Below, piece after piece: positions 16,867 through 41,147 of a stretch of 64,000 nt of DNA. Location of the stretch: assembly GCA_902595845.1 (NCBI GenBank), contig CACJRN010000003.1, forward strand, positions 62,001 to 126,000. Direction: 5' to 3'. Every line of letters begins with the position of its first letter. Position 1 is the first letter of the stretch. The position numbers and the translations under genes were made by a program. Under the pieces are notes generated by a model. That model did no database searches. It was not told the DNA's origin and saw nothing but the letters and a program-made list of their open reading frames with translations. Origin of the DNA: an uncultured Gammaproteobacteria bacterium. Its GTDB lineage: Bacteria; Pseudomonadota; Gammaproteobacteria; Steroidobacterales; UBA11654.

Positions 16867-17604
16867 CTATAACCAATTCTGAAATTCATCCATCGATTTA
16901 AAATCAGTAAAGTCAGTTTCCAGAGGTGTGATTGAAACTCTATTCTTTGAAATGGCATCGAAATCAGTTCCCTCTTCACCCAAAATAGGCTCTGGTGGAG
17001 GACCAACCCAATGTATCTCATTTCCATATGCATCCGTATTGATTCTGTCATTCTCAGGTAATTCTCTTCTACCTAAACGTGTCAGAGAGTATCCCTCTAT
17101 TTGCTCAATGGGTATATCTGGGACATTGATATTGAGTATCGATGAAGGATTGGGAAGCTTGTCTAATTTTTCTTCAATAATTTCACGCACAACTTCTACT
17201 GCTGTAGTGAAGTGATCAGGTTTTAAGTTAGTGATTGATACAGCCAAAGATGGGAAGGGATGAAATCGACCACCCATTGCCGCTCCAACTGTTCCTGAGT
17301 ACAAAACATCGTCTCCAAGATTTGCACCGTGATTAATACCGCTGATCAAAATATCAGGTGGACTCTTTAAAATTCTAGTAAGCGCCATGAATACGCAGTC
17401 TGCTGGTGTTCCATTTACATAAAAACCATTGTCCTTATATTTTCTAATCCTCAATGGATTTTTCAGCGTCAGTGAGCTACTGGCTCCACTGTGATTGTTT
17501 TCAGGTGCAACAATTGTTACATCACCTACCTCACTGAGCATTTCATCAAGCATCACGATGCCTTTAGAAAAATAGCCATCGTCATTTGTCAGTAATATCT
17601 TCAT
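16867..17604 (-). CDS. surE: 5'/3'-nucleotidase SurE
   Basis: Metal-dependent nucleotidase/exopolyphosphatase of the stationary-phase survival family. The N-terminal LLTNDDGYFSKGI metal motif, NNHSGASSSLT phosphate site and SGINHGANLGDDVLYSGTV signature are intact. 245 residues, like E. coli (253). It follows the enoyl-CoA hydratase gene by 2 nt. The usual neighbours ispD, ispF, truD and pcm are absent. Confidence 0.96.
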   Translation of the reverse strand: MKILLTNDDGYFSKGIVMLDEMLSEVGDVTIVAPENNHSGASSSLTLKNPLRIRKYKDNGFYVNGTPADCVFMALTRILKSPPDILISGINHGANLGDDVLYSGTVGAAMGGRFHPFPSLAVSITNLKPDHFTTAVEVVREIIEEKLDKLPNPSSILNINVPDIPIEQIEGYSLTRLGRRELPENDRINTDAYGNEIHWVGPPPEPILGEEGTDFDAISKNRVSITPLETDFTDFKSMDEFQNWL

Positions 17605-17606
17605 AG

Positions 17607-18359
17607 TTAGAGATTCTCAGCGATGTATTTCATTCGAGACTGTACCTCATCATCAAACCAGCCTTCTGCATAACCTTCTGACATAGTTTTCAATTGCTCG
17701 TCAAACAAATTGTTGATTTCTGATTTTGCATTCAATCGAGTCCTATTCATTGCCAATGGTGGCAGTTGAGTGAGATTTTTTAACCAATCAAGCGTTCTTG
17801 ATTTTACTTGATTGGGTTCTACGAGTTCATCAATAAAACCGATCTCATGTGCAAAATCAAAATCCATCAGTTGTCCATGCACCATAAGGTTTGTGGCATG
17901 TTTTTCCCCGACATGTCTGGCAAAACCTTTGTATATGACCCTAGGCACCTCAAGTCCAACGAAGACTTCATTCATGCCGATCTTGAAACTCCCATTGGCC
18001 GCGACTCGATAGTCACAAAAATTCGCTAAAACAGCACCACCTGCTGGGCTATGTCCAGTGATTGCTGCAGCAATTGGAATGGGGCTCTTCGAGATCTTTG
18101 CCATCAAACCCCAAAAAGATTTAAAAAAGACCGTTATTTCATCCGCATTCATTTCCACTAGCTTTTTGACATCCAATCCAGCAGAGTAAATACCTTCCCT
18201 TCCGCTCAGCATGAGTGCTTTTGCTCCATTATTCGTATGATCATCAATTGCCTGGTGCAAGCCTTCTACTATTTCAAGGTTCAAAGCATTCACAGGAGGG
18301 CGATTCATTTGAATATCAATAATCCCATCATGTTCTGTAATTAAAGTAAGTTCAGTCAT
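17607..18359 (-). CDS. Enoyl-CoA hydratase/isomerase family protein
   Basis: Crotonase-fold protein of 250 residues. It shows the NRPPVNALNLEIVEGL N-terminus, the oxyanion-hole segments LSGREGIYSAGLDVKKL and ITGHSPAGGAVLANFCDYRVA, and an ending typical of the family. The catalytic glutamates of classical hydratases are not clearly in place, so isomerase or other crotonase chemistry is possible. The ATG at 18359 has GGAG 6 nt upstream and is preferred over a TTG at 18371. Sits where ispD-ispF normally lie between ftsB and surE. Confidence 0.85.
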   Translation of the reverse strand: MTELTLITEHDGIIDIQMNRPPVNALNLEIVEGLHQAIDDHTNNGAKALMLSGREGIYSAGLDVKKLVEMNADEITVFFKSFWGLMAKISKSPIPIAAAITGHSPAGGAVLANFCDYRVAANGSFKIGMNEVFVGLEVPRVIYKGFARHVGEKHATNLMVHGQLMDFDFAHEIGFIDELVEPNQVKSRTLDWLKNLTQLPPLAMNRTRLNAKSEINNLFDEQLKTMSEGYAEGWFDDEVQSRMKYIAENL

Positions 18360-18376
18360 ATCAACTCCCAAAAAAT

Positions 18377-18649
18377 TTACTCAACGATTAAATAAAACTC
18401 TTCCCCCTCTTTGATCATTCCAAAATCAGTTCTCGCTTTTTCTTCTATGGACTCTGTTCCTGTTTTTAGCTCTTCTATCTCTTGTTCCAATTGTTCATTT
18501 CTTAATTTTAGTTTTTGATTCTCCTCAGTCTGACTATCAATCATTTGCTCTAATTCTTTGACGCGAGAGAAGCCATCATCCTTGAACCAAATATCAAATT
18601 GAATCATCAAAAAAAAGGCGATGAGTATTATGATAAAGAAGCGAATCAT
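18377..18649 (-). CDS. ftsB: Cell division protein FtsB
   Basis: A 90-residue bitopic protein of the FtsQLB divisome complex. A single N-terminal membrane helix (about 3-18) is followed by a coiled coil (about 28-65), then a C-terminal region with [18 protein letters not shown], the typical FtsB end. Starts inside the last codons of eno (4-nt overlap), the usual eno-ftsB pairing. Confidence 0.94.
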
Positions 18650-30025: not shown

Positions 30026-30808
30026 TTAGCCTTTTCTGACAATGCCTCTTGTCGTATTGTTTAGAAAATCGACAAGAATATTGAGTTCTCCGTTGATATC
30101 ACCAAGATCCTGAATTGCCTTTATAGCCTCTTCTAATCGAAGATCAGACATATACAAGGCTTTGTATGCTGATTTAATGTTCCTTATCTGATCCTTTGAG
30201 AAATCTCTTCTTTTTAAACCCTCAAGATTGATCCCTCTGGGTTCAGCAGGTTGGCCCATCACAATGACATATGGAGGAAGATCTCTGGCCACTCCTGAGT
30301 ACATACCCAAGAAGCTATGCGCTCCTATTTTACAGAACTGATGGGCACCCGAAAAACCACCAAATATGACGTTATCTCCAACCTCAACATGCCCACCCAA
30401 TGTTGTGTTGTTAGCAAATATCGTATTGTTTCCAACTTGACAGTCATGTGCAATATGAACATAGGCCATGATCCAGTTGTCATTGCCCATTCTTGTAACG
30501 CCTACATCCTGGATTGTTCCCTTGTTGATGGTCGTATATTCTCTGATTGTATTTCTATCTCCGATTTCAACTGCAGTTTCCTCATTTAAGTACTTCTTAT
30601 CTTGAGGATCATCTCCAATGGAGGAAAAAGAATAAAAGTGATTATCCTCGCCGATCTTTGTGTTTCCCTTGATGACAACATGCGATTCTATCTTTGTATT
30701 CTTACCAATCTCTACATCATCCCCGATGATAGAATAAGCTCCAATTGCAACGCTTGGATCAATATTTGATTTGGATGATACGACTGCTGTTTTATGAATG
30801 TTAGTCAT
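30026..30808 (-). CDS. lpxA: UDP-N-acetylglucosamine acyltransferase
   Basis: First step of lipid A synthesis, transferring a hydroxyacyl chain from ACP. The 260 residues form a left-handed beta helix of hexapeptide repeats; the catalytic region [12 protein letters not shown] and the chain-length-setting [21 protein letters not shown] are visible, with a helical C-terminus. Overlaps lpxD by 8 nt: the fabZ gene that usually separates lpxD and lpxA is missing here. Confidence 0.96.
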
Positions 30809-32441: not shown

Positions 32442-34847
32442 CTAAAAAGCACCACCAACTGTAAATTGGAATCTCTCTGTCTCATCAGAATAAAATCGAT
32501 CTCTGCCGTCTATAGAATTCATTGGTATGGCATAACTGAATCTAAATAATCCCATTGGAGCCAACCACTGGGCTGCTAAGCCATAAGATCGCTTCAATTT
32601 ACTGGCATCAAAACTGTAGTCTATTGGATTACCTTCAGGATCAAAAAAATCCAGTTCACTTGTTGAAAAGGTATTTCCGATATCAAAAAATAGACTGAAT
32701 CTTGCTCTATTGGCCCAATCACCAGGTATGGGAAGAATGAACTCAGTCTGACTCGAAATCAAGAGGTTACCGCCATAAGGGTTCCCATAATTGTCTTTTG
32801 GTCCCAATCGATGCTCTTTGAATCCCCTAACTGTGTCCGGACCTCCGGCATAAAAGTTCTTGTAAGGAGGTACACCAATTGAATCACCATATGCATCATT
32901 GAACGCGAGATCTGCTTTAACCATCATTGTAAGTCGATTAATGATAGGGAAAGGGATATTGAAGTATTGTTTGTAGGCATAATTGATCCCATAGTACTCG
33001 ACATCACTTCCTGGTATTGAGGCATTTAAAATCAAACGATGGCTCATCCCCTGATCTGCAAACATAAATCTATTCCTTGAATCATAGACCCATCCAGCAG
33101 TCAGCTCAGCATTGTCAAATCTGGTTTTACAGAAGTCAAAAAACTCTTGGTCAAAACATTCACTCTTTCCATTGCTTGTAACCCATTGAAGAGCTTGATC
33201 GGCACTATAATCTCCAGCCAGAAGCTCTGAACTCTGAAGAGAGCCTCCAAATATAAGCCTTTGGAACTCTGACAATGGGTAAGAGTATTGTGCTCCGAGA
33301 GAGTATGTTTTGGTTGAAAAATCGGATGATGATGCTGTGAACTGACTGAAGTTTGAATAAGAGAGACTCAGTGTCCTTGAAATTTCATCAATGCCTGTAT
33401 ATGCATTAGTGGTTGATATGCTGTATAAATCCCTGAATCGACTTGCATTGATATCCAACCCTACCCTGTTTCCTGTTCCGAAGAAGTTTGTATGTGTGAA
33501 GTTACCATTCAAGATAAGTTTCTGATATCCAGAATAACCGATTCCGCCTCCAAATTGTCCAGGAAGTCCCTCTTTTATATTGAACTCTGCATCTACAAGA
33601 TCAGTCGAGCCTGGAACTGGATATGTTTCATAATTCACTTCTTCGATAAAGGGCAGTCTTTGTAATCTGATCTTTGATCTTTCAAGTTTGCTTTTCGAAT
33701 AGTAACCACCTTCGAGTTGTCTCATCTCTCTCCTGAGGACATCATCATTGATTGATGTTGTGTCTGTGAAATTTATTCTTCTCACATAAACCCTATCTTT
33801 CGGTTGAATGTAGAATACGACTTTCACTTCCTTGTTTTCTCGATCTAATTCTGGAACTGCCTCTACTTCTGCAAAAGAATACCCATCTTCACCGAGCTCA
33901 TACTCGATCAGCTCCGTAATAGAGGTTAATAACCCTTGGGAAAAGGTCTGCCCAGGTTTTGCGAAGATAAATTTTTCAATCTCCTCTTTTGGGATAACAA
34001 ATTCACCAGTTACTTTTACATCTGAGAGGGTATAGACTTCATCTTCAGTGATATTGATTGTTACAAAAATTCCTTGCTTATCCTTAGAAATTGCAACCTG
34101 TGCGGATTCAATCCTAAAGTTTGCATAGCCTTGGTCTAAATAAAAATTTTCAATTGTTTCAAGGTCTCCCTGAAGATCTTCACGAGAGTATCTATCATCC
34201 TGATTGAAAAATGATAGCCAGTTTGGCATCTGTAACTTCAATATATCTAGAATATCTTCATCACTGAAGATCTTATTTCCAACCACATTGATTTGCCTAA
34301 TTTGTGCCCTATCGCCCTCACTGACATCAACTTGAACACCAACGGTATTTCCAGGAAGTTCTTCAACTGTTGTTTTCACTCTGGCATTGTATTTACCAAA
34401 ACTAAAATACTGATCGATGAGTGACCGCTCAATTTCATCTAGAATCGAAGGATCATAATTTCTGCCAATCTTGAAACCAATATTATTTAAAGAATCTTCT
34501 AGATCCTCTGTTTTTATGTCTTTATTACCTTCAAAGTTTATTGAGGCGATGGATGGTCGCTCCAATACAGAAATGATCAATACTCCTGAATCATCCTTTC
34601 TAAACTCTATATTCTTAAAAAATCCACTTGAATAAACAGAACGGATAGACTCTTGGATTCTGCTTTCATCAAGACTGTCCCCAATATTGACTGGTAAATA
34701 GTTCAGAAGTGCGCCTTCCGAAATCTTTTCAAGGCCTTCTATTTTTATATCTTTTACAACAAATTCATCATTAGATAGAGTTGCCATAGGGAAAATGAAC
34801 AACCAAATTGCAATAGTTATAATGCTTTTGTTCAAAATTGAAATCAC
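32442..34847 (-). CDS. bamA: Outer membrane protein assembly factor BamA
   Basis: Core of the beta-barrel assembly machine. The 801-residue precursor has a signal peptide (about 1-25), five POTRA repeats starting at FVVKDIKIEGLEKISEGAL and extending to about residue 425, then the barrel with GGGIGYSGYQKLILN and the conserved lid motif VRGF in GGPDTVRGFKEH. It ends ERFQFTVGGAF with a terminal aromatic as BamA substrates do. Overlaps rseP by 4 nt. Confidence 0.97.
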   Translation of the reverse strand: MISILNKSIITIAIWLFIFPMATLSNDEFVVKDIKIEGLEKISEGALLNYLPVNIGDSLDESRIQESIRSVYSSGFFKNIEFRKDDSGVLIISVLERPSIASINFEGNKDIKTEDLEDSLNNIGFKIGRNYDPSILDEIERSLIDQYFSFGKYNARVKTTVEELPGNTVGVQVDVSEGDRAQIRQINVVGNKIFSDEDILDILKLQMPNWLSFFNQDDRYSREDLQGDLETIENFYLDQGYANFRIESAQVAISKDKQGIFVTINITEDEVYTLSDVKVTGEFVIPKEEIEKFIFAKPGQTFSQGLLTSITELIEYELGEDGYSFAEVEAVPELDRENKEVKVVFYIQPKDRVYVRRINFTDTTSINDDVLRREMRQLEGGYYSKSKLERSKIRLQRLPFIEEVNYETYPVPGSTDLVDAEFNIKEGLPGQFGGGIGYSGYQKLILNGNFTHTNFFGTGNRVGLDINASRFRDLYSISTTNAYTGIDEISRTLSLSYSNFSQFTASSSDFSTKTYSLGAQYSYPLSEFQRLIFGGSLQSSELLAGDYSADQALQWVTSNGKSECFDQEFFDFCKTRFDNAELTAGWVYDSRNRFMFADQGMSHRLILNASIPGSDVEYYGINYAYKQYFNIPFPIINRLTMMVKADLAFNDAYGDSIGVPPYKNFYAGGPDTVRGFKEHRLGPKDNYGNPYGGNLLISSQTEFILPIPGDWANRARFSLFFDIGNTFSTSELDFFDPEGNPIDYSFDASKLKRSYGLAAQWLAPMGLFRFSYAIPMNSIDGRDRFYSDETERFQFTVGGAF

Positions 34848-36205
34848 CCAAAAATCCTTGCTAAATCATTATAGAGTGCAAAAACCATCAGAAACAAAAG
34901 TGCGGTTACCCCAATCTGTTGAAAGGCCATTTGTATTTTTTCAGGTAATGGTCTTCTGATGACAGTCTCGATGCAAACAAAGAGGATCTGACCGCCATCC
35001 AAAACAGGAATTGGAAGAAGATTAAGAATCCCCAGACTGATGCTTATGATCGCCATAAAAGAGAGTGTCGCAATGATGCCTCTCTTAGCAACAGTGCCAG
35101 CATCTTTTGCAATGCCAACAGGTCCGCTTAAATTATCACTGGAAATCTGACCTGTTACCATTTTGCCCAACATATTCAGTGTCAAACCAATCATTCTATT
35201 GGTCTCTTCAATTGACATAAGGAAACTTTGAGTAAAAGAATACTTTTCTATAGCCATGTATTCTTGCAATTGATCTTGATCAAAAGTTGTTTGCAAACCT
35301 ATGTAACCCATCGATTTATTGTCTTCCCTAGTAGTGAGTGAGACATCTGTTTCATAACCCATTCCATCCCTCTCAATGAGAAGATCAATCAAAGTATTGG
35401 GTCGATCCATAATCAATTGGCTGAATTGCTCAATATTCTGAATCTCTATGCCATCGATGCTTTTTAGTATGTCATCCTTTTTCAAGCCAGACTGATCTGC
35501 TGGACTGTCTGGAACAACAGAGACGACAATTGGCTTAAGATTAGGAGATTCTGGCGTAAAGCCAAGGCCTGGAAACAATAAGTCAGGTGATGTAAGTTCT
35601 TTAGTTCTCCCACTGACATCAAGAAGTACATTTTTTTTGCTTCCATTGGCATTGATTAATTGTATTGATATTTGCTCATCCTCAAGTACTTCACCAATCA
35701 TTGAGATCAGAGCAGATTGCCAAGTTTTTACATCTCTATCACCAACAGAAATAATTTCATCGCCAGCTCGAATATTGGCCTCCCATGCAATAGATTGCTG
35801 ATCAACCTCTCCTATCATCGGTTTTTGACCAGGTACACCAGCAGAAAACATAAGCGTATAAGCAATGATTGAGAAGATAAAATTAGCAGCTGGCCCTGCA
35901 AAGAGAATAAAAATCTTTTTAATGGGTGTCTGATTGTTGAAGGCTCTGTCTTTTTCTTCTTCAGCAACCTCTTCACTTCTTTCATCTAAGAGTTGAACGT
36001 AACCACCTAGAGGTATTAATGAAAGACAATATTCTGTCTGATCATTACCTGATCGTTTACTGGCAAGAACCTTGCCGAATCCTATTGAGTAGCGAAGAAC
36101 CTTTACATTGCATAATTTTGCAGCAATGTAATGTCCGTATTCATGAATAGCGACAAGCACGCCAACCAAGACGATGAATGCTATTACTGAAAATAAAAAA
36201 TCCAT
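34844..36205 (-). CDS. rseP: Site-2 zinc metalloprotease RseP
   Basis: Intramembrane protease that cleaves anti-sigma factor RseA and signal-peptide remnants. The 453 residues show the zinc motif HEYGH at about residue 21 in VAIHEYGHYIAAKL, two PDZ domains (GDEIISVGDRDV; KKDDILKSIDGIEI) and the second metal site NLLPIPVLDGGQ near the C-terminus, with four membrane segments. The stress sigma genes it normally serves are not in this window. Confidence 0.96.
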   Translation of the reverse strand: MDFLFSVIAFIVLVGVLVAIHEYGHYIAAKLCNVKVLRYSIGFGKVLASKRSGNDQTEYCLSLIPLGGYVQLLDERSEEVAEEEKDRAFNNQTPIKKIFILFAGPAANFIFSIIAYTLMFSAGVPGQKPMIGEVDQQSIAWEANIRAGDEIISVGDRDVKTWQSALISMIGEVLEDEQISIQLINANGSKKNVLLDVSGRTKELTSPDLLFPGLGFTPESPNLKPIVVSVVPDSPADQSGLKKDDILKSIDGIEIQNIEQFSQLIMDRPNTLIDLLIERDGMGYETDVSLTTREDNKSMGYIGLQTTFDQDQLQEYMAIEKYSFTQSFLMSIEETNRMIGLTLNMLGKMVTGQISSDNLSGPVGIAKDAGTVAKRGIIATLSFMAIISISLGILNLLPIPVLDGGQILFVCIETVIRRPLPEKIQMAFQQIGVTALLFLMVFALYNDLARIFG

Positions 36206-36342
36206 TTTTTAATTATCCCTCTCCATTATGAAGGAATTATAAAGATTGAAAGGATTAAAGAAAGCCAAAAACCATTAAAATAAGGAATATCAAATAAAAT
36301 AAGTCATATTGATTTGCATTTTTTTTAGTTTTTTAAAACCCA
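36206..36342. other. Gene-free spacer at the usual dxr position
   Basis: 137 bases between the cdsA stop and the rseP start. No frame longer than about ten codons, no stable hairpin with a T run, and no trace of dxr were seen. It is AT-rich and could contain an rseP-bamA promoter, but none matches consensus convincingly. In Pseudomonas-type gene order, dxr (ispC) lies exactly here. Confidence 0.7.
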
Positions 36343-37128
36343 TTAGAAGTTTTCTGGCAAGCTCATTAACAAAAGTGCAAAAAATGGCAGTGACGCAATT
36401 GAACCATCTAAGAGGTCAATAAATCCTCCATGACCAGGTATAAGATTGCTTGAATCTTTTACATTGGCACTCCTTTTAATGAAACTAAAAACGACATCCC
36501 CTGCAAAACTCACAGGCGTTATGATTATGCCAAATATGATTGCACCATATAAATTGATGCCTATTAAACCAGATAAAATTGCCAAAAAAATTGGGGTTGC
36601 AACGAAGGCACCGATCAAGCCTTCAAGGGTTTTACCAGGACTGGTGTTTCTGAGAAGAATTTTTCTTCCAAATTTTTTACCGAAGAAATATGCAGCCGAG
36701 TCTGCAAAAGATACGGCAATTAAAACCAGCATCAGTAACTTTGCATAAGCTTCAAAAATAATGATTCCAGAGACAAACGTAGGAAAAATCATTAGATAAC
36801 CAGAAAAAAATATCTCAGCGTTTCCCATCGTTGGATTGTCATATAGCAAAATTCTCAAGAATAGACTAAGCCATATCAAGCAACCAAGAATGACAAAATA
36901 AGAGTAATATTCACTCGGTACCAAAGTGCTGATTAAAATAGTAAGCAAAAATGCCAATGACAATGATTTTGTCTTGAAAAATCGAGAATATTCATAAGAC
37001 ACCAAAAGTGCCAATATGGCTAAAGTATAAACAGGGATATCAGGCATCAGCCTTGTCGCATTTATAATTACTGCCAAAATAACAAGAAGAACCAAGCCAG
37101 ATGAGATTCTTTTTTGAAGGTTTGTCAC
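36343..37128 (-). CDS. cdsA: Phosphatidate cytidylyltransferase
   Basis: Integral inner-membrane enzyme that makes CDP-diacylglycerol for all phospholipids. The 261 residues have about eight hydrophobic segments and the family signature SFIKRSANVKDSSNLIPGHG before the final helices, preceded by SPGKTLEGLIGAF. Starts 5 nt after uppS. Conserved uppS-cdsA order. Confidence 0.95.
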   Translation of the reverse strand: MTNLQKRISSGLVLLVILAVIINATRLMPDIPVYTLAILALLVSYEYSRFFKTKSLSLAFLLTILISTLVPSEYYSYFVILGCLIWLSLFLRILLYDNPTMGNAEIFFSGYLMIFPTFVSGIIIFEAYAKLLMLVLIAVSFADSAAYFFGKKFGRKILLRNTSPGKTLEGLIGAFVATPIFLAILSGLIGINLYGAIIFGIIITPVSFAGDVVFSFIKRSANVKDSSNLIPGHGGFIDLLDGSIASLPFFALLLMSLPENF

Positions 37129-37133
37129 CTAAT

Positions 37134-37895
37134 TTAAGCTTCCTTTAGTTCAGTATCTTCATCGACATTGCCAAATCTTCGCTCTGACAGAGAGTACGTT
37201 TGAAGAATTTCTAAAAACTCTTGCTCCTCAAAGTTTGGCCATAATGTCTCTGTAAAATGAATTTCAGAGTAAGCTGATTGCCATAGCATAAAGTTACTCA
37301 GTCTAGTCTCACCAGAGGTTCTGATTATCAAATCTAGCTCTGGAAGATCATTGAATGATAGATACTCATTAAATGATTCAACTGTCAGATCATTTACATC
37401 AATGATCTGATTGTCATGATCATCAATTAATTTTTTGATTCCATTTATGATTTCTTGTTGGCCACCATAAGCAATTGCTAGAGTCAATTTTAGTCCACTA
37501 TTCTCTGATGTGATGGACTCCATCTGCTCTAATTTCCGTTTCAAGACATCAGGCAACGTTGATGGATCGCCAGCAGTTTTGAATCGCACATTGTTATCAA
37601 TCAATAAACTGGTATATTTTTCAATAGTCTTTTCAAAAAGACTCATTAAACCGCTGACTTCTTTTTTTGGTCGAGACCAATTCTCAGAACTGAACGCATA
37701 GAGTGTCAATGCCTCAAGCTTAATTTTTACAGCGGTTTCAACCAACTCTCTTGCCTTAAGAACACCGGCTTCATGGCCGAATATCCTTCTTTTGCCCCTG
37801 ATTTTTGCCCATCTTCCATTGCCATCCATAATGATGCCAACATGTTTTGGCTGATTAGGGATTGTCTCTGGATGATTATTTTGTGATGAAGACAT
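37134..37895 (-). CDS. uppS: Undecaprenyl diphosphate synthase
   Basis: Cis-prenyltransferase that extends farnesyl diphosphate to the C55 carrier for peptidoglycan and O-antigen precursors. Seen: GIIMDGNGRWAKIRGKRR with the catalytic aspartate, GHEAGVLKARELVE, YAFSSENWSRP, and LIIRTSGETRLSNFMLWQ. 253 residues. It needs isopentenyl and farnesyl diphosphates, notable because the neighbouring MEP pathway genes are missing from their usual places. Confidence 0.97.
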   Translation of the reverse strand: MSSSQNNHPETIPNQPKHVGIIMDGNGRWAKIRGKRRIFGHEAGVLKARELVETAVKIKLEALTLYAFSSENWSRPKKEVSGLMSLFEKTIEKYTSLLIDNNVRFKTAGDPSTLPDVLKRKLEQMESITSENSGLKLTLAIAYGGQQEIINGIKKLIDDHDNQIIDVNDLTVESFNEYLSFNDLPELDLIIRTSGETRLSNFMLWQSAYSEIHFTETLWPNFEEQEFLEILQTYSLSERRFGNVDEDTELKEA

Positions 37896-37899
37896 CGAA

Positions 37900-38457
37900 T
37901 TAGATGGTCATGACATCTTTTTGCTTTTCCTGGCTAACAGACTCAATTGATCCGGTCATGCTGTCTGTGATTTCTTGAATGTCACTCTGTCCTTTATGAA
38001 AGTCATCTTCTGATATCATTTTTTCATTTAGGTATTCTTTGAGATCTTGAATGGAATCTCTTCTGATATTTCTAATTGATACTTTTGCTTGTTCCTCTTC
38101 AGTCTTTACTTGTTTAGTAAGCTCTACTCTTCTCTCTTCTGTGAGAGGTGGAAGCGGTATTCTGATGACATTTCCAGTTGTCACCGGATTAAGTCCAATA
38201 TTTGCTTTGACGATGGTTTGCTCAATCTCTGGAATAAATTTTTCTTCCCATGGCGATATTGCCAATGTTTGAGAATCTTCTACAGAAATATTTGATAATT
38301 GATTCAGAGGAGTTTCATTCCCATAATAATCGACTGTAATGCTATCGAGAATATCCGGAGATGCCCTTCCTGTTCTGATCTTTGTAAGATTTGACTTAAA
38401 GGCATCAATAGTCTTTTGCATCCTTTGCTTGGTATCTTCGTAAATTTCTTCTTGCAT
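37900..38457 (-). CDS. frr: Ribosome recycling factor
   Basis: Splits post-termination ribosomes together with EF-G. The 185 residues are full length: N-terminal helix with ALxxIRTGRASP-like FKSNLTKIRTGRASPDIL, the domain II segment YYGNETPLNQLSNISVED, and the C-terminal three-helix bundle with EERRVELTKQVK and SIRNIRRDS. Between pyrH (7 nt) and uppS (4 nt). Confidence 0.97.
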   Translation of the reverse strand: MQEEIYEDTKQRMQKTIDAFKSNLTKIRTGRASPDILDSITVDYYGNETPLNQLSNISVEDSQTLAISPWEEKFIPEIEQTIVKANIGLNPVTTGNVIRIPLPPLTEERRVELTKQVKTEEEQAKVSIRNIRRDSIQDLKEYLNEKMISEDDFHKGQSDIQEITDSMTGSIESVSQEKQKDVMTI

Positions 38458-40066: not shown

Positions 40067-41044
40067 TTACTTCTCTTCCTTATTTTCATCCTCTGCTGGG
40101 GCTGCCTCTTCAGCTGGAGCTTCTTCCTCTGCTGGGGCTTCTTCCTCTGCTGGGGCTGCCTCTTCAACTGGAGCTTCTTCCTCTGCTGGAGCTTCTTCCT
40201 CTGCTGGGGCTTCTTCCTCTGCTGGGGCTGCCTCTTGAGCTGGAGCTTCTTGTGAAGTTTTCTTTATTACTATTTTCTTTTTCTTTTTGATTTTAGTAGT
40301 AGAAATTTTTCCTTCACTATCAACTTCAACAAAGTCATCCTCAATTTCCTCTAATATCGGAATTGTACTTTTACCTTCTTGATAGCTCTCAACTATCAAC
40401 GAAGTGATGAGTTCGGTCGTTAGTCTTGAATCATCGTTTGAAGGAATAAGATAATCGACTCCATCTGGTGATGAATTGGTGTCAACAATAGCCAAAATTG
40501 GTATACCTAGAACCAGTGCTTCCTTCACGGCATTCTTTTCATAATTTACATCAACAATAAAGATTGCATCAGGCAACTTTTTCATGTTTCTGATACCACC
40601 TAGGCCTTTTTCGAGTTTCTCATGAGATCTTCTTAGTGTTAGTACTTCTTTCTTTGAAAGCCCCTGAATATTTTCTTCTTTTAACGCTTCTTCAAGATTT
40701 TCAAGTTTTTTGATCGATTTAGAGATTGTTTTGTTATTTGTGAGTGTTCCACCAAGCCATCTATTCGAAACATATGGCATATCACAAGTAACGCCTGCAT
40801 TTTTGATTGCATCTTTTACAGATTTCTTTGTGCCTACAAAAAGAATCGTCCCTGATTGAGCGGCCAAGTTCTTAACAAAATCAGAAGCAGCCTCTATTTG
40901 GGGGATAGTTTTTTCTAGATTGATTATATGAATCCCGTTTCTGTCGCCATAGATGAAGTCCTGCATCTTGGGATTCCAATATTTGGTCTTATGACCAAAA
41001 TGTGCTCCTGCTTCGAGCAGGTCACGAATGTTTACTTTTTTCAT
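40067..41044 (-). CDS. rpsB: 30S ribosomal protein S2 with Ala-Pro-Glu repeat tail
   Basis: Small-subunit protein S2. Start is ATG at 41044 (KKVNIRDLLEAGAHFGHKT) with AGAGGA upstream; a longer frame to 41092 is not supported. Residues 1-226 are a normal S2 (MPYVSNRWLGGTLTN, VDTNSSPDGVDYLIPSNDD). Residues 227-325 are an added tail: an acidic linker, a lysine-rich patch (KIKKKKKIVIKK) and about nine near-identical six-residue units of the form APAEEE. E. coli S2 has 241 residues, so this is about 85 longer. The tail is in frame with normal tsf spacing, so it is not an assembly error by appearance; its function is unknown. Confidence 0.94.
   Translation of the reverse strand: MKKVNIRDLLEAGAHFGHKTKYWNPKMQDFIYGDRNGIHIINLEKTIPQIEAASDFVKNLAAQSGTILFVGTKKSVKDAIKNAGVTCDMPYVSNRWLGGTLTNNKTISKSIKKLENLEEALKEENIQGLSKKEVLTLRRSHEKLEKGLGGIRNMKKLPDAIFIVDVNYEKNAVKEALVLGIPILAIVDTNSSPDGVDYLIPSNDDSRLTTELITSLIVESYQEGKSTIPILEEIEDDFVEVDSEGKISTTKIKKKKKIVIKKTSQEAPAQEAAPAEEEAPAEEEAPAEEEAPVEEAAPAEEEAPAEEEAPAEEAAPAEDENKEEK
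40091..40249 (-). repeat. 18-bp tandem repeats encoding APAEEE units in rpsB
   Basis: Short imperfect tandem repeats, mostly 18 bases long (plus-strand form GGGGCTTCTTCCTCTGCT), with 15-18 base variants. The near-identity of DNA units suggests recent expansion by slippage, so copy number may differ among strains. The opposite strand shows a Leu-Pro frame that is only a shadow. Confidence 0.85.
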
Positions 41045-41147
41045 TTTTTTCCTCTTTGGGTTAAACTCCCACAAATCCCAATCAATAACCAAATAAGGGC
41101 ACCCATTGACTGTGTCGAATTGTGTTCGATATTAATGCAAAATTGCG
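41045..41147 (-). ncRNA. Probable S2 (rpsB) mRNA leader
   Basis: About 100 nt of leader precede rpsB. It holds a perfect TCGAA/TTCGA stem with a 5-nt loop, a TCAAT/ATTGA stem and a GGG/CCC stem just before the Shine-Dalgarno. Gammaproteobacterial rpsB leaders are known S2-autoregulatory elements; equivalence here is inferred from position and length, not from an aligned structure. Confidence 0.35.

Follow-up and report, generated by a model that had tools for sequence, protein, structure and literature searches.

How does a bacterium obtain its isoprenoid precursors when dxr is missing from the site at which its relatives carry it? This question is raised by the 64-kb window analyzed here, which comprises positions 62001-126000 of contig C3 of the draft genome G000 (1,435,211 bases in 25 contigs, 92.4% complete). 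In the window, rseP, cdsA, uppS, and frr are consecutive and all on the minus strand (Table 1), for the first three in agreement with the gene order given in a preliminary description, and the 137-nt spacer without dxr that had been noted there lies exactly between rseP and cdsA. In E. coli, dxr is located between frr and uppS, and as these two genes are only 4 nt apart in the window, there is no room for it at that location. Since UppS uses IPP and FPP, the cell must have an isoprenoid source.

Table 1. Locations of the junction genes, of the second site, and of the mevalonate pathway genes. Positions without a contig name refer to the window.
Feature	Contig	Position	Strand	Remarks
surE-like ORF	window	16867-17604	-	right flank of the ispD-ispF-truD site; assigned by sequence
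enoyl-CoA-hydratase-like ORF	window	17607-18371	-	at the ispD-ispF-truD site; assigned by sequence
ftsB-like ORF	window	18377-18649	-	precedes ispD-ispF-truD in MEP relative
rseP, site-2 protease	window	34844-36205	-	TIGR00054, 388 bits
cdsA-rseP spacer, 137 nt	window	36206-36342		no gene, no dxr remnant; dxr here in MEP relatives
cdsA, phosphatidate cytidylyltransferase	window	36343-37128	-	PF01148
uppS, undecaprenyl diphosphate synthase	window	37134-37895	-	TIGR00055
frr	window	37900-38457	-	4-nt gap to uppS
type 1 IPP isomerase	C4	L047:4547-5149	-	TIGR02150 143.7 bits, cut-off 105.8; overlap with the fusion gene at the 3' end of the latter
reductase-kinase fusion, 748 aa	C4	L047:5097-7343	-	TIGR00532 406 bits and TIGR00549 265 bits (cut-off 163), both over cut-off
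FPP synthase	C5	L109:5231-6118	-	
diphosphomevalonate decarboxylase	C5	L109:6200-7165	+	TIGR01240 222 bits, over cut-off
phosphomevalonate kinase	C5	L109:7155-8138	+	88.5 bits, NCBIfam equivalog cut-off 165.7; over Pfam cut-off
HMG-CoA synthase	C14	L110:6103-7569	-	173 bits, NCBIfam equivalog cut-off 360; over Pfam cut-off

The preliminary description had called the spacer gene-free and had regarded it as a replacement of dxr. The first statement holds insofar as the spacer contains no ORF of at least 60 aa, but it is not featureless, as it holds a conserved 15-nt block, TATAATTCCTTCATA (36227-36241, minus strand), 21 nt upstream of rseP. This block was identical in all ten family genomes examined, our own included, and occurred in no other fetched locus, while the remaining spacer was variable. 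It is likely a promoter or leader element of rseP-bamA-skp-lpxD; a scan of the spacer for known RNA families and for a sigma-70-type promoter gave nothing above threshold. The second statement needs correction, as dxr was deleted and not replaced. No remnant of dxr was found in the spacer, and dxr, ispD, ispF, ispG, ispH, and dxs had no tblastn match across the whole 64 kb.

The loss of ispD and ispF at a separate second site had also been proposed, and this was confirmed by comparison with the MEP relative G013, in which the order is eno-ftsB-ispD-ispF-truD, whereas the window has eno-ftsB, the hydratase-like ORF, and surE. The truD gene, which is 3' of ispD-ispF in G013, is likewise missing from the ftsB-surE site of the window (17607-18371). 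Two further features of the window are recorded here as side aspects. Most of the order has fabZ between lpxD and lpxA, but this gene is missing there (about 30801-30808) in the window and in the sampled family members. The rpsB gene (40067-41092) encodes a ribosomal protein S2 with a long acidic tail of alanine- and proline-rich repeats (EEEAPAEEEAPAEEEAP).

The MEP genes were then sought by profile searches in the entire 92.4% complete genome, with E. coli as a positive control that matched in every MEP gene search. For dxr, ispF, ispG, ispH, and dxs, there was not a single match over cut-off. With ispD, no match exceeded 39 bits, and all were partial and in frames of 239-477 aa, as would be expected for other nucleotidyltransferases. 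The three GHMP-kinase matches of the genome are fully explained by the mevalonate, phosphomevalonate, and diphosphomevalonate enzymes, and ispE is therefore absent as well. Ten further genomes of the same family all lacked dxr, ispF, ispG, and ispH, and all ten contained the reductase. An IspD-like protein of nearly full length (86.7 bits; G025:C35:6740-7405) was observed in another genome without dxr, ispF, ispG, and ispH.

The genome-wide search for both pathways, which the preliminary description had suggested, thus yielded none of the seven MEP genes and a complete mevalonate set from HMG-CoA synthase to the decarboxylase. Of the two sources that it had considered, the mevalonate route or an import of precursors, the former is supported by the full gene set, and the latter is unnecessary. 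All mevalonate genes are located outside the window, at three sites on contigs C4, C5, and C14 (Table 1). As phosphomevalonate kinase and HMG-CoA synthase scored below the NCBIfam cut-offs, both were assigned by their Pfam families, by homologues with solved structures, and by the neighbouring genes. The phosphomevalonate kinase matches structure 1k47 over residues 2-311 (E 1.8e-7), and the HMG-CoA synthase matches structure 5hwq (E 2.5e-27), with the active-site Glu (GTES/GTET) and Cys (ACL/ACY) common to both; relatives with a solved structure exist for all five proteins. In many genomes, MVD-PMK-[reductase-kinase]-isomerase forms a single cluster, and relatives such as G015 have the full set in one cluster (FPPS-MVD-PMK-[HMGR-MK]-IDI-HMGS), which is why the neighbourhood backs the two assignments.

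Reductase and mevalonate kinase are encoded in one uninterrupted frame in our genome and in relatives from many families. The N-terminal domain possesses the catalytic Glu, Lys, Asp, and His of a class II HMG-CoA reductase: E83, K267, D283, and H381 of the P. mevalonii enzyme correspond to E88, K273, D289, and H387 of the fusion, and these four residues are invariant in 13 of 13 aligned fusions. The kinase half contains conserved GHMP motifs, namely the PRGMGLGGSA loop and KLTGGGGGG. Both activities would reside in a single polypeptide. The model of a 62%-identical homologue (L121; mean pLDDT 81, pTM 0.52) has a folded domain on either side of a linker predicted with low confidence (429-443) and therefore does not fix the mutual placement of the domains. 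The fusion may serve to hold back mevalonate from escaping, or to keep both activities in step. In G018, the reading frame of the fusion also includes the phosphomevalonate kinase, with no intervening stop (L056, 11557-15156, minus strand), possibly resulting in a three-step enzyme. In G009, the fusion match (L032, G009:C2) contains three TAA stops and rseP is present in two copies (66% and 69% identical); as 4% contamination is listed for this genome, these anomalies are probably an assembly problem.

Taken together, we consider it highly probable that the IPP and DMAPP of the lineage come solely from a mevalonate route with a fused reductase-kinase, the enzymes acting as their genes predict, and that the MEP genes were lost once they had become dispensable, leaving the closed cdsA-rseP junction behind. 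At the level of gene content, this explanation is nearly settled. In this pathway, acetyl-CoA units would be converted to HMG-CoA by the HMG-CoA synthase, and HMG-CoA would be reduced to mevalonate by the N-terminal class II reductase domain of the 748-residue protein, whose C-terminal kinase domain would then produce mevalonate-5-phosphate. Phosphomevalonate kinase and diphosphomevalonate decarboxylase would complete IPP synthesis, the type 1 isomerase would generate DMAPP, and the FPP synthase would supply UppS. With this route in place, the MEP genes would have become dispensable and could have been lost, resulting in the closed junction.

To which extent this applies to the entire order was analyzed with a sample of 30 genomes of 1.1-6 Mb. 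A mevalonate reductase without MEP genes was present in 22 of them and MEP genes in the other eight; where these MEP genomes have reductases at all, they are separate, distant, stand-alone proteins. The gene order was cdsA-dxr-rseP in all seven readable MEP genomes and cdsA-rseP in all 21 readable mevalonate genomes (our window counted), so that the junction predicts the pathway in 28 of 28 readable genomes, a match that exceeds chance. In the tree of 11 neighbouring proteins, four state changes are needed, at least three of which are forced by well supported branches, and a single mevalonate clade was rejected (p-AU 2e-9, simple model). As the mevalonate genomes do not form one clade, replacement of the MEP pathway has recurred, and as the position of dxr is constant among the MEP genomes with a readable junction, the order probably inherited the MEP pathway and lost it on several occasions. 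A link of the switch to streamlining is not supported, as genomes of 2.5-6 Mb in the same order switched likewise. Genomes of our family have 1.1-1.6 Mb, the nearest mevalonate relatives in the species tree, G022 and G024, have 2.5-2.8 Mb, and others reach up to 6 Mb. In view of these large mevalonate relatives, the switch preceded genome reduction or was independent of it.

We also scanned named genomes, several records of which are MAGs, for fused loci. Such loci were found in five phyla, which are Pseudomonadota (Woeseiaceae, Nevskia, Salinisphaera, Azotimanducaceae, UBA4421, and TMED78), Calditrichota, Acidobacteriota, Planctomycetota, and Actinomycetota (Cryobacterium and a Nakamurella MAG). 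The Cryobacterium carriers include the named strains Hh31, Hh34, and CGMCC 1.5382. Bacillota and Myxococcota have the two genes side by side but unfused. Because of the MAGs among the records, individual unexpected placements may go back to binning errors. A plasmid-borne fusion was considered and rejected, as none of the 66 matching plasmid records covered 80% of the query. The 62 fused rows fell without exception into one clade of the reductase-domain tree (simple model, long branches), and this clade had a support of 100/100 when the tree was repeated with a mixture model and 42 rows. A single fusion event would be the simplest reading of one fused clade, and the distribution suggests that the cassette may have moved between phyla by lateral transfer.

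The history of the switch could also have been different, with the present biochemistry being the same: the ancestor of the order could have had both routes, of which the individual lineages dropped one, with little or no repeated transfer. The constant position of dxr in the MEP genomes, which makes an inherited MEP pathway probable, fits such an ancestor, and the fusion tree partly tracks the species tree (G012/G015/G029; G022/G024/own family). However, fusion and MEP genes occur together in none of the 30 sampled genomes, and copies from other phyla and other orders are interleaved among the fusion copies of the order, so we regard an ancestor with both pathways as credible but rather unlikely. 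Far less probable is a simple relocation, in which the MEP genes would be intact elsewhere and the mevalonate genes would have another use, such as mevalonate catabolism. The reductase does belong to an NAD-type family labelled "degradative" by NCBIfam, and the mentioned stand-alone reductase does occur in some of the order's MEP genomes. Nevertheless, relocated MEP genes are excluded as far as the 92%-complete genome and the ten further same-family genomes allow, and the pathway extends to IPP, DMAPP, and FPP and thus past any catabolic need. Just as improbable is an assembly artefact, with MEP genes in the missing 8% of a draft in 25 contigs or with contaminating mevalonate contigs, since both junctions are intact and closed, the MEP absence repeats in the ten further genomes, and our fusion copy groups among same-genus copies in the reductase tree.

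Beyond the use of the mevalonate route itself, we tentatively propose, aware that this may well not hold, that the fusion arose once and constitutes a portable cassette, MVD-PMK-[HMGR-MK]-IDI, which would have moved across at least five phyla and, within one order of Gammaproteobacteria, repeatedly taken the place of the MEP pathway, and that the kinase, tethered behind the C-terminal part of the reductase, might pass mevalonate between the domains or couple the reactions.

MvaE of Enterococcus is a fusion of thiolase and HMG-CoA reductase. Like the fusion described here, it combines a class II reductase with a second mevalonate pathway enzyme, but its partner catalyzes an earlier step and is N-terminal (thiolase), whereas the partner here catalyzes the following step and is C-terminal (kinase). 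Virgibacillus and Myxococcus have neighbouring genes for HMGR and mevalonate kinase with the same order of parts and with related reductases, but these genes are unfused and outside the fused clade. Two isoprenoid-precursor enzymes are also joined in the bifunctional IspDF (PMC13001223), which belongs to the other pathway, the MEP pathway, and combines non-consecutive steps, in contrast to the consecutive steps here. The bacterial mevalonate pathway of Staphylococcus, Myxococcus, and Wenzhouxiangella resembles that of our genome in its steps, in the enzyme families to IPP, in the type 1 isomerase, and in the frequent clustering; the differences are that here a single polypeptide comprises reductase and mevalonate kinase, all MEP genes are gone, and the set is distributed over three sites. 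A mevalonate pathway specific to Wenzhouxiangella has been reported in Gammaproteobacteria (PMC7691419), and the switch is therefore a new case of a known phenomenon. According to a recent review, 12% of 4,249 bacterial species use the mevalonate route, and mixed usage within clades is stressed (Qabar et al., 2026; PMC13001223); when its main text was searched by terms, there was no hit for Gammaproteobacteria or for a fusion of reductase and kinase. A preprint on the diversity of bacterial reductases (PMC13370337) mentions no such fusion, and full-text searches of the openly accessible literature gave no description of it. As far as could be checked, the reductase-kinase fusion is apparently undescribed. 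For isoprenoid engineering, it represents a ready-made part.

MEP enzymes are drug targets, and Gammaproteobacteria are commonly assumed to possess them as standard. In the order analyzed here, the two routes alternate throughout, and a junction that differs by one gene reads out the state. The question of why bacteria swap isoprenoid pathways thereby becomes testable by comparing close relatives.

The switch also concerns vitamins, as DXP is the precursor for the thiazole of thiamine and, in the DXP-dependent route, also for vitamin B6. For PdxS, the enzyme of the alternative B6 route, none of the 30 genomes gave a match over cut-off, and it is thus ruled out as a substitute. With dxs lacking in our genome and PdxS lacking in all 30, dependence on outside B6 is predicted, and the mevalonate members of the order are predicted to have lost both known routes to this vitamin. 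As the loss of DXS removes the precursor of both B6 and thiamine, these bacteria may depend on their neighbours for both.
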